DNA from: Sphingomonas jatrophae
Lineage (GTDB): Bacteria; Pseudomonadota; Alphaproteobacteria; Sphingomonadales; Sphingomonadaceae
Assembly (NCBI RefSeq): GCF_900113315.1
Contig: NZ_FOZG01000002.1
Location: 186,001-250,000, forward strand
Reading direction: 5' to 3'
Length of the DNA: 64,000 nt
Part shown: piece by piece, positions 29,327 through 32,872 of the stretch
Numbering within the stretch: position 1 is the first letter of the stretch
Layout: each line of letters begins with the position of its first letter
Made by a program: the position numbers and the translations under genes
Notes under the pieces: generated by a model
Told to the model about the DNA's origin: nothing
Database searches by the model: none
What the model saw: the letters and a program-made list of their open reading frames with translations, nothing else

Positions 29327-29515
29327 TCAAGAGCGGCGGACCGCCATCGCCCATGCGACGGCAGCCACGGGCGCGGCGAGTCCCACCCAAGCCAGGGCGT
29401 CACGCCATCCGTCTCCCGTGAGCGCGGCGACCAGAGCCACCGCGCTCAGTGCTGTGATCGCCAGAGGCACGGCGAAGATCGCGCCCAAGCTGCGCCCAGC
29501 GGGTAGTTGCCTCAT
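29327..29515 (-). CDS. 62-aa membrane protein of the iron-uptake operon
   Basis: A 62-aa protein with two hydrophobic helices (about 11-32 and 41-58: IFAVPLAITALSAVALVAAL, WVGLAAPVAAVAWAM). Its ATG overlaps the stop of the PepSY gene by ATGA, which ties it to that operon and supports its reality. Small two-helix proteins of the DUF3649/DUF3325 type often follow PepSY proteins in siderophore loci; the match here is by size and place only. Confidence 0.65.
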   Translation of the reverse strand: MRQLPAGRSLGAIFAVPLAITALSAVALVAALTGDGWRDALAWVGLAAPVAAVAWAMAVRRS

Positions 29516-30677
29516 ACGCTCGGGACCACGGTCCCGCCCGTTTCCACCTCACGTACGTGGGCTGCGGTGGAGGCCCGGCGCTTCCCGAGCCACAGATAGA
29601 TCCCGCTTCCCAGGATCACGATCGCGAAGACATCAAGCACGGCCAGAGGATTTTCAGCGGCAACCCACCATAGTCCCCGAAGTGCAGGGGTCGGGAGAGC
29701 GAGAGCGACTTGTTGTACCACGGCATCGCCCGCGCGGTGGTGAAGGCACCGGTTTCGGCATCGATCAGCGCCGGCGTGAGCAACCGTTCGGTCAACGGCG
29801 TGTCCCCCTGGAAAAACACCGCATAGTGCTGCTTCGAGCTGAAGCGGCCGCCTGGAAAGCCGATGAACTGCGGATTGTAGCCGGGCAAGGCCTTGCGCGC
29901 CTCTGCCATCGCCTTGTCGAGTGAGCCGTAGCGTGACGGATCCAGCGCCTTCCTGCCTGTATAGGCCCGCGTCATCGCGGCGAGCTCGTTGCGCTGCCAA
30001 AGTTTGTTGATCGGATTTTCCAACGTGTTGATGACGCCGCTGACGCCGACGACCGTCATCCAGGCCAGCGCGACGATGCCGAGCAGGTTGTGATAATCGA
30101 GCCATTTCAGCCGCGAACTTCGCGACGTCCGCAGAGTGCCGAAGGCGAGCTTCCGCATGAACGGTGCGTAGAGCACCACGCCAGACACCAGCGCGGCGGT
30201 GAACAGCAGGCCTATCGCCCCCAAGAAGAGCATGCCGGGCAGACCCAGGAACATGTCGGTATGGAGGTCGAGAAGGAAGTGCATCACCCCGCCCTCCTCT
30301 TCCTTACCGAGGCTCTTGCCCGTCGACCGGTCGAACAGCTGGATGGTCATCTCGGACCCGGGAGAGTCCGGCTTTGGACCCGTCGTGATCGTCATTGACG
30401 GCTGGTCGTTGTCGAACGCCATGAACAGCGGCACCTCGCCCGGCCGGGCTGCAAGTGCCCTCGCCATCATTGTATCGAGGGGCAGCAGGCCGGGTGCGTT
30501 GCTGGACGAGCCAACCCCCGGCATGCCGAACTGCCGCGTCTCACCACTCAGTCGATCGATCTCGTCGCTGAAGATCAGCGGCAGGCCTGTCACGCACAGC
30601 ATGAGCAGGAAAACCGTGCAGACCAGGCTCGTCCACTTGTGGACGAGATACCAAGCCTTGATCGTCCCGGCTCTCAT
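29512..30677 (-). pseudogene. PepSY-associated TM protein with a one-base frameshift
   Basis: A membrane protein of the PepSY-TM group that accompanies siderophore receptors, probably in iron release or reduction. ATG at 30677 lies 2 bp after the receptor stop. Frame 1 gives helix 1 (VFLLMLCVTGLPLIF), HFLLDLHTDMFLG, YHNLLGIVALAWM and RPLHFGDYGGLPLKILW, then breaks into PCLMSSRS and a stop. The shifted frame continues with AVLDVFAIVILGSGIYLWLGKRR, the expected last helix. Restoring one G in the G-run at about 29641-29646 gives 388 aa, with a stop that overlaps the next ATG. It is either a sequencing error or a recent mutation; the tail is otherwise intact. Confidence 0.85.
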
Positions 30678-30679
30678 GA

Positions 30680-32872
30680 TCAATACTCGAAGGTCGCAGA
30701 GGCCTTGATCGTCCGCGGGCCGCCCTGGACCAGATAGCCGCCGAACGCTGAATACCAGAACCGGCGATTGTCGATATTCTCGGCGGAGAGCCGCAGCGTC
30801 ACCGGATGGCCGTTTGCCACCACCACGTAGCGCGCGCCGAGATCGAAGCGGGTCCAACCCCGGAGCCGCTGAAGGTTGCCAACGTCGACGAACTGTTCCC
30901 CCGTCTTCACCATGCGGGCGGTCAGCGTTGCAGCCTTGAGGAACGGCGGAACGACCTCGACGCCGACATTCGCCTGATAATCAGGCACGCCGATCGCCTT
31001 GTTGCCGTCATTCGTGCCGTTCAGGGTGCGAACCTGCTTCGCATCGTTGATCGCGAGGCCGCCGATGATGCGCACGCCCTCGGCGGGCTCGCCATTGAGG
31101 CTGAGTTCGATACCCCGATTGCGCTGCTGTCCTTCAACCACGAAAGTCAGCGCGGCCGGGTTGGTCGCCGTTGGCGTGGGCTGATTGAAGCTGTTCGGCT
31201 GCCGGGTCTGAAAGAAGGCCAGGGTTGCGGTAAGGCCGCGGACCGCAAGCTTGCCGCCCACCTCATACTGCTTCGAGCGGAACGGCGCGAAGATCTCGCC
31301 GGCGTTCAGCGTGTTGGCGTTGTTGGGCGCGGTCGGTCCCTGCACCAACGCCTCGATACGGTTCGCGTAGACCGTGAAGGTTTCAGTCGGACGAACCGCG
31401 ATGCCGATCACTGGCGTGGTGGCCGCCTTTTCGTAGCGGGCAGTTCGCAGGCCTGTTAGCCGTGCGTAGCTGTCTATATCCAACCACTGGCGTCGCGCGC
31501 CGACCGTGAGCAGCACCCGATCTTGCGCAAAGCCGAGCGTATCCGAAAGGAACAGGCTCTTGAACACGGTCCGCGAGACCCGCGGCGGATCCCTGAAGTT
31601 TCCTTGCGCCCCGGAGTCGGCAGGACGCGGCACGAGCACCGGATTGTAGAGGTTGGTGCAGAAGGCCGTCGCGGCCGCACCGCACGGCGTTCGCGAAGCA
31701 GCGGGGAAGCTGCCGGATGCGAAAGCGTTGCGGTTTTCCTGCCAGTTCGCCGAGCCGCCGGCGTTCACCTCATGCGAAACGCCGAACGCTTCGAAGCTGC
31801 CGCGAACGCCCGCTTGCCCCGCCTCATTATTATCCTCACGGGGAACATAGAGGCGCGACTGAGTACCTGCACCGGTGGCGCCATTGGTCAGCGTGATGGT
31901 CGCGTAATCGCCCTCCTCCCGGCCGTCGCGAAAGCCGCCCGACGCGTAGGCCAGCAAGCCCGGGGCGAGATCCGCCTCAACTCGCGCCAGCGCATAGACG
32001 TCGCGAAGCTTCGTAAAGGCCCAGTTCTGCGCATAGTTCGCGGTCGAACCCGGCACCCGAGGCACAGCGACGCCGCTGTTCGCCAGCCGGACCTGCGGAC
32101 GCGGCACATGGACGCGCTGATCCTCATAGCCGAAATCCAGCGTGAAGCGGACCGGGCCACGGCGAACATCGAAGCCGGCACCCGCCACACCGACACGGCG
32201 ACGCTCGCGGTCGATCGGGGAATCACCGCTGCGATAGACTCCGTTCACGCGGATGCCGAACGTGTCTTCGTCGCCGAAGCGGGTGCCGAGATCGACATTC
32301 CCACCGAACACGCTCTCCTGGCTGTAACTGGCGGTAGCGCGGAGCAGCGTCTTCGTCGCACGCTTTGGGATCAGGTTTATGCTGCCGCCTACGCCCGAGC
32401 CACCCGGCGCCGCACCGAACAGGAAGGCATTGGCACCGTTCAGCACCTGGACCCGTTCGTAAAGCTCCGGTGAGACGAGCTGGCGCGGGGTGATGCCGAA
32501 CAGTCCGTCCATCGCAACATCGTCGCCGTTAAGCGCGAAGCCGCGGATCACGAACAACTCGGCCTGATTGCCGAAGCCTTGGGTTGTGCGCACCGAGGGC
32601 TCGTTCTCAAGCACATCGCCCAGCGTTTCAGCCTGCTGATCCAGCACGAGCTGGGCGGTGTAGCTGGTGACGTTGAACGGCGTCTCAAGCGCACTCTTAT
32701 CGCCAAGCACGCCGACGCTGCCGTCGCTCACGACCTGTTTCTGCCGCTGCTGCGCAGTGACGACGATCTCGTCAGAAGCCTTGTCTTGGGATGCCTGAGC
32801 GACTGCCGGCGTCGCCAACGTGGCGAACGCCATCCATCCTGCCGTTCTGCCTGCTTTCCAAATCGCCTTCAA
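30680..32872 (-). CDS. TonB-dependent siderophore receptor
   Basis: A 730-aa outer-membrane receptor that imports ferric siderophores with TonB energy. A TTG start after GGGGG gives a signal peptide ending VAQA; TonB box-like DEIVVTA follows at about residue 33. The plug is about 60-165 (VLENEPSVRTTQGFG, IRGFALNGDDVAMDG, VQVLNGANAFLFGAAPGGSGVGGSINLIPKR in family style) and the rest is barrel, ending KASATFEY. It heads an operon with PepSY and a 62-aa protein and has a Fur-like box 51-65 bp upstream. The siderophore is unknown. Confidence 0.93.
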   Translation of the reverse strand: MKAIWKAGRTAGWMAFATLATPAVAQASQDKASDEIVVTAQQRQKQVVSDGSVGVLGDKSALETPFNVTSYTAQLVLDQQAETLGDVLENEPSVRTTQGFGNQAELFVIRGFALNGDDVAMDGLFGITPRQLVSPELYERVQVLNGANAFLFGAAPGGSGVGGSINLIPKRATKTLLRATASYSQESVFGGNVDLGTRFGDEDTFGIRVNGVYRSGDSPIDRERRRVGVAGAGFDVRRGPVRFTLDFGYEDQRVHVPRPQVRLANSGVAVPRVPGSTANYAQNWAFTKLRDVYALARVEADLAPGLLAYASGGFRDGREEGDYATITLTNGATGAGTQSRLYVPREDNNEAGQAGVRGSFEAFGVSHEVNAGGSANWQENRNAFASGSFPAASRTPCGAAATAFCTNLYNPVLVPRPADSGAQGNFRDPPRVSRTVFKSLFLSDTLGFAQDRVLLTVGARRQWLDIDSYARLTGLRTARYEKAATTPVIGIAVRPTETFTVYANRIEALVQGPTAPNNANTLNAGEIFAPFRSKQYEVGGKLAVRGLTATLAFFQTRQPNSFNQPTPTATNPAALTFVVEGQQRNRGIELSLNGEPAEGVRIIGGLAINDAKQVRTLNGTNDGNKAIGVPDYQANVGVEVVPPFLKAATLTARMVKTGEQFVDVGNLQRLRGWTRFDLGARYVVVANGHPVTLRLSAENIDNRRFWYSAFGGYLVQGGPRTIKASATFEY

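Follow-up and report, generated by a model that had tools for sequence, protein, structure and literature searches.

A one-base frame break near the 3' end of hiuB in a putative hiuABC-type operon of Sphingomonas jatrophae

The minus strand of a 64,000-nucleotide stretch of the Sphingomonas jatrophae genome (hereafter the window) carries three adjoining genes, for a TonB-dependent siderophore receptor, a PepSY_TM protein and a 62-aa membrane protein, and the middle gene loses its reading frame shortly before its end. The question is whether this break is an error in the sequence, a young mutation, a sign of decay or a site of recoding. Frameshifts seen in a single genome in this way mislead annotation and are open to misreading as recoding or as lost function. 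The reading that we favor, with a probability of about 0.92, is that of a hiuABC-type operon whose hiuB gene was broken by an assembly or base-calling error or by a very recent mutation, and which is otherwise undecayed.

The broken gene and its operon

Frame 1 of hiuB runs from an ATG at 30677 to a stop codon at 29616-29618 on the minus strand (29616..30677), and encodes 353 aa with the C-terminal end LPLKILWPCLMSSRS. This head matches the Pfam family PF03929 (PepSY_TM) at 1.7e-51, reaching profile position 274 of 295, and its score of 176.2 bits against a gathering cut-off of 28.8 places it within the family. From the junction, at 29640..29646, the shifted frame reads (L)AVLDVFAIVILGSGIYLWLGKRR...VPSV, and this tail (29512..29646, minus strand) provides the last transmembrane helix and the C-terminus, followed by its own stop codon at 29512-29514. 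The 62-aa gene (29327..29515, minus strand) starts at 29515, so that its start and the stop codon of the tail overlap as ATGA. The original prediction had described exactly this arrangement, a PepSY protein broken near its end with the expected last helix going on in the shifted frame and overlapping a 62-aa membrane gene, and the range that it gave for the break, 29641-29646, is correct to within one or two bases. The net error in the frame of hiuB in this one genome amounts to one base and lies close to the 3' end of the gene. Judging from the alignments, the tail goes beyond chance, since the last helix of the relatives aligns with it in the same place and the overlap with the small gene is conserved. 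No base was restored for any comparison; head, tail and small gene were each compared as a separate piece.

Upstream lies the hiuA-like receptor gene (30680..32872, minus strand), which is open throughout and encodes 730 aa from a TTG start that, as listed, is provisional. The protein matches PF00593 (1.5e-32), PF07715 (1.5e-17) and, above the family cut-off, TIGR01783 TonB-siderophor (5.6e-92), and its gene ends two bases before the start of hiuB, which makes it the adjacent siderophore receptor gene of a hiuABC arrangement. A scan of the whole window with a single pattern, the classical 19-base Fur box, gave no match with up to three mismatches; the match of a second pattern, which was derived from upstream DNA of the window itself, is circular and was disregarded.

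In Caulobacter crescentus (CCNA_03023-03021), where hiuABC was described in 2026, ferrioxamines and ferrichrome are imported by HiuA. HiuB, in the inner membrane, resembles FoxB and is presumed to act as the reductase of the ferric siderophore, and HiuC, a small membrane protein predicted to bind HiuB, is required for ferrioxamines and not for ferrichrome (PMC13001220). Reductases of this kind let bacteria obtain iron from borrowed carriers. Judging from gene order and homology, the three window genes correspond to this receptor, FoxB-like ferrisiderophore reductase and small partner: the order of receptor, PepSY reductase and small membrane protein on one strand is the same, with the reductase gene directly followed by the small gene at 29327-30677, and the middle gene is FoxB-like. 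One difference is that hiuB of the window is frame-broken. By analogy, the locus is a putative hydroxamate-siderophore operon of the hiuABC type, and its assignment to this newly described system is a by-product of the analysis. The comparison within Caulobacter was made with five loci from other genomes of that genus (L093, L099, L103, L104 and L110); their HiuB proteins are 56-63% and their HiuC proteins 39-54% identical to those of the window, and four of the five have no receptor similar to the window hiuA (E 1e-5) within ~3 kb. In 47 aligned HiuC-like proteins, L28 and L32 are the only invariant positions, and the core is ALTGDG..D..SW. At E 0.1, two of these 47 members were the most that any Pfam or NCBIfam family matched, and the best matches, 0.00054 for one member (NCBIfam) and at best 0.0061 for two members (Pfam), were to other, mutually unrelated families; a search of the PDB with hiuC found nothing better than E 0.02.

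The relation of HiuB to FoxB was examined by sequence and by structure. FoxB of Pseudomonas aeruginosa (7abw) was the sole PDB match of the family profile up to E 1, at 5.6e-10. For the fold comparison an AlphaFold model of an intact relative, L010, was used (mean pLDDT 79.8) and not the window copy; with Foldseek, 7abw was again the sole entry below E 0.001 (two chains), at 4.7e-12 and with a query TM-score of 0.59, which points to a FoxB-type fold for the modelled relative. HiuB thus resembles FoxB in the family-profile match, in the fold of L010, in its four long helices and in conserved histidines in the relatives, and differs in that the window copy is without the last helix in frame and that the structural alignment of L010 to 7abw has ~18% identity. 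Five histidines, H12, H138, H195, H283 and H331 (L010 numbering), are invariant in the 56 intact relatives, of the 109 fetched, that were aligned. Haem binding and ferrioxamine reduction are, by analogy, putative functions of the window HiuB. The last long helix of the L010 model spans residues 338-363 and the frame is lost just after W344 (L010 numbering), so according to the model the greater part of this helix, the fourth in the membrane, is lost through the break. If the break is real, the product would lack this helix, ribosomes would stop ~100 bases before the start of hiuC, with a presumable loss of coupling to that gene, and reductive iron release from ferrioxamines should fail, provided that the function is lost. 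Two more PepSY_TM matches are present in the same genome (L004 at G000 C4 ~641000 and L005 at G000 C5 ~514000), both with a stop inside the matched stretch.

Relatives and constraint

Relatives were collected in two ways. Of 397 genomes of the family that were searched, 89, counting the own genome, have the protein at E 1e-30 or better, and a scan of genome contigs gave 123 confirmed relatives, of which the best 80 were kept. Together, 109 loci were fetched (L010-L118), 29 from the family-genome search and 80 from the contig scan, some of them being the same genome present in both collections. The genus-level search set consisted of the own genome alone, and the comparisons are therefore made without close strains. 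A script read 106 of the 109 loci (99 distinct head-plus-tail sequences), and all 106 have a single frame across the junction, with protein ends 30-49 residues past it; the three loci that the script patterns missed (L064, L091 and L105) were read by eye and are in one frame as well. A natural end at LPLKILWPCLMSSRS, which would have spoken against a broken gene, was thus seen in none of the 109. The small gene overlaps the hiuB stop codon in all scripted relatives, including the five Caulobacter loci, starting one base before this codon in 105 of them and within a TGATG in the remaining one; as a by-product, the analysis provides 106 hiuB-hiuC pairs, every one with a start-stop overlap.

To estimate selection on the two sides of the break, pN/pS was calculated against ten close relatives with 83-87% protein identity to the window, by simple counting that is uncorrected for multiple hits. 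For the head, the value was 0.191 between the window and these relatives and 0.192 among the relatives; for the tail in its own frame, which has only 43 codons, it was 0.279 versus 0.314, and for hiuC 0.381 versus 0.402. For the head, a three-point estimate on the branch of the window alone gave 0.188 (bootstrap 0.14-0.26), and the ten relatives span 0.14-0.27. Head, tail and hiuC contain no second stop or frameshift. These values make a long unselected period on either side of the break unlikely, and bear out the earlier claim that the tail is intact and without decay. An old pseudogene, in which the tail would have stayed intact by chance, would explain the broken frame. It is hardly credible, and we rejected it, as neither the missing further lesions nor pN/pS values that resemble those of the relatives on both sides of the break agree with it. 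Since both sides are as constrained as in the relatives, the break should have arisen through faulty assembly or base calling, or else through a very recent mutation.

An intact and constrained tail, and a next gene that still overlaps the tail's stop codon, would also be expected if programmed ribosomal frameshifting or transcriptional slippage yielded the complete protein despite the break. For 685 bases before the frame-1 stop neither frame is closed, and this double-open stretch does contain short single-base runs. The longest have five bases (at 30222, 29816 and 29808); those less than 60 bases from the junction have four at most, and the nearest is four A's ~10 bases before it. A slip upstream of the junction would, however, swap out conserved residues. 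Slippery heptamers follow the motif X_XXY_YYZ, and none is present in frame in the 685 bases. Because the break occurs in none of the 109 fetched relatives, there is no conserved recoding either, and the two marks of a programmed frameshift gene, a conserved break and a slip motif, are both absent here. We therefore consider slippage very improbable; of the three causes that the original prediction had listed, sequencing error and very recent mutation stand, and the slip site was dropped for lack of a broken relative among those fetched and of a heptamer in the double-open stretch.

A further reading is a real but tolerated lesion, whereby a three-helix HiuB works, be it by itself or together with a tail helix that is translated independently from a start codon of its own. 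All five histidines that are invariant in the aligned intact relatives precede the break, and the tail frame has GTG codons at 29640 and 29619. Yet this frame contains no ATG or TTG past the junction and only four GTGs, a ribosome-binding site before the first of these was not seen by eye, and the tail is kept in frame in 109 of 109 fetched relatives. Moreover, according to PMC13038864, two membrane helices flank each PepSY domain in FoxB. A tolerated break is accordingly improbable. Taken together, the relatives and the constraint indicate that the hiuB frameshift is fresh or artificial, in a gene that is otherwise ordinary and recently described.

Sequence error or recent mutation

Within the favored reading of an error or a very recent mutation, we give an assembly or base-calling error about an even chance, and a mutation too recent for a visible relaxation of selection a chance somewhat below even, which amounts to a slight lean to error. 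An indel-rich assembly was considered as a cause. Frames were surveyed in 1.2 Mb of the own genome, taken in stretches, with coding frames decoded over 1.25 Mb including the window. The coding-potential decoder reported 461 same-strand frame switches in this 1.25 Mb, 41 of which had no nearby start at the stop; 15 of these 41 odd switches begin more than 25 bases before the stop codon, and two of the 15 were real breaks when inspected by eye. In a first round with 400 kb of each genome, the same settings and an own model per genome, such switches numbered 5 of 145 in the own genome (G000) and 20 of 106 in the control genome G001, the latter without follow-up. In simulations the decoder detected 80 of 120 one-base losses, and it missed the hiuB break itself, which means that short tails escape it and that there may be more breaks than were counted. 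A test by homology with 400 kb of G001 gave a good match for 3 of 319 ORFs, too thin to be of use.

With two other clear breaks in 1.25 Mb, the assembly gives no impression of being rich in indels overall, and this cause was discarded. A low error rate slightly favors a real mutation. The few breaks that were seen, with intact tails, fit a handful of residual errors as well as a handful of young mutations. In one of the two, at G000 C4 ~76345 (L186 ~16345, minus strand), a gene which we take to be BCCT-transporter-like shifts frame mid-gene and has a long intact tail; in the other, at G000 C5 ~292485 (L175 ~2485, minus strand), a presumably cysteine-desulfurase-like gene shifts frame just before its end, and a ferredoxin-like gene adjoins. 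The first two names come from recognised sequence motifs and not from a family search.

The survey of frameshifted prokaryotic genes with GeneTack by Antonov and colleagues offers a comparison with singletons: lone BLASTp-validated frameshifts are expected to be sequencing errors, and those near the 3' end are more likely to be real indels (PMC3711429). As in these singletons, hiuB has a lone, homology-validated frame transition that is absent from the fetched relatives, and we see nothing in particular that sets it apart from them. Young pseudogenes in Salmonella are quickly removed, according to Kuo and Ochman (PMC2916853).

Origin of the receptor and reductase genes

The position of the receptor gene varies among the relatives. 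Of the 106 scripted loci, 69 have a receptor similar to the window hiuA downstream of hiuC and on its strand, 18 have it upstream as in the window, and one has it on the opposite strand; for the other 18 the DNA searched contained no such receptor, and in four of these it extended hardly beyond 1 kb to either side. One of the 18 upstream receptors, that of L082, is only 23% identical to the window hiuA. Two others that lie upstream of hiuB, those of L106 (Hephaestia) and L111 (Sphingomonas montanisoli), are 70% identical to it, and a receptor tree groups the three (SH-aLRT 100). The HiuB proteins of these two loci are, however, only 57% identical to that of the window, which in the HiuB tree groups with six downstream-receptor loci (SH-aLRT 99; HiuB identity 83-87%), whose receptors, where listed, are ~50% identical to the window hiuA. 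Both are quick trees of 61 rows with a full receptor, including the window, and without bootstrap; the receptor tree gave long-branch warnings, including one for a deep branch on the side of the window.

The window DNA closely resembles that of L111 until ~100 bases into hiuB and less so beyond, and there its similarity to L040, L039 and L010 increases. The operon therefore looks like a hybrid, with hiuA from one lineage and hiuB from another. The simplest reading of the similarity switch is a crossover within the conserved first bases of hiuB, in a putative zone at 30577..30677 (minus strand), where the L106/L111 lineage on the hiuA side would give way to the L039/L040/L010 lineage in hiuB. 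The likely hybrid illustrates a way in which a core of reductase and partner may come to change its receptor. It is here more interesting than the frameshift, and looks like ordinary evolution of iron-uptake loci.

The two features of the locus could also belong to one history, in which a crossover joined a receptor of an A-B-C lineage to the reductase and partner of a B-C-A lineage and was then followed by a real loss of the last helix, as early decay of the operon or as rerouting to another reductase of the genome. If true, the exchange of the receptor and the onset of operon decay would be seen at an early stage; we regard this linked sequence of events as rather unlikely. Finally, operons of a PepSY gene, a small gene and a TonB-dependent receptor gene are also found on plasmids, in Novosphingobium (L203, AP026900.1) and Sphingobium (L204, NZ_CP005085.1), and the operon on the Novosphingobium plasmid has transposase and integrase genes no more than a few kb away.
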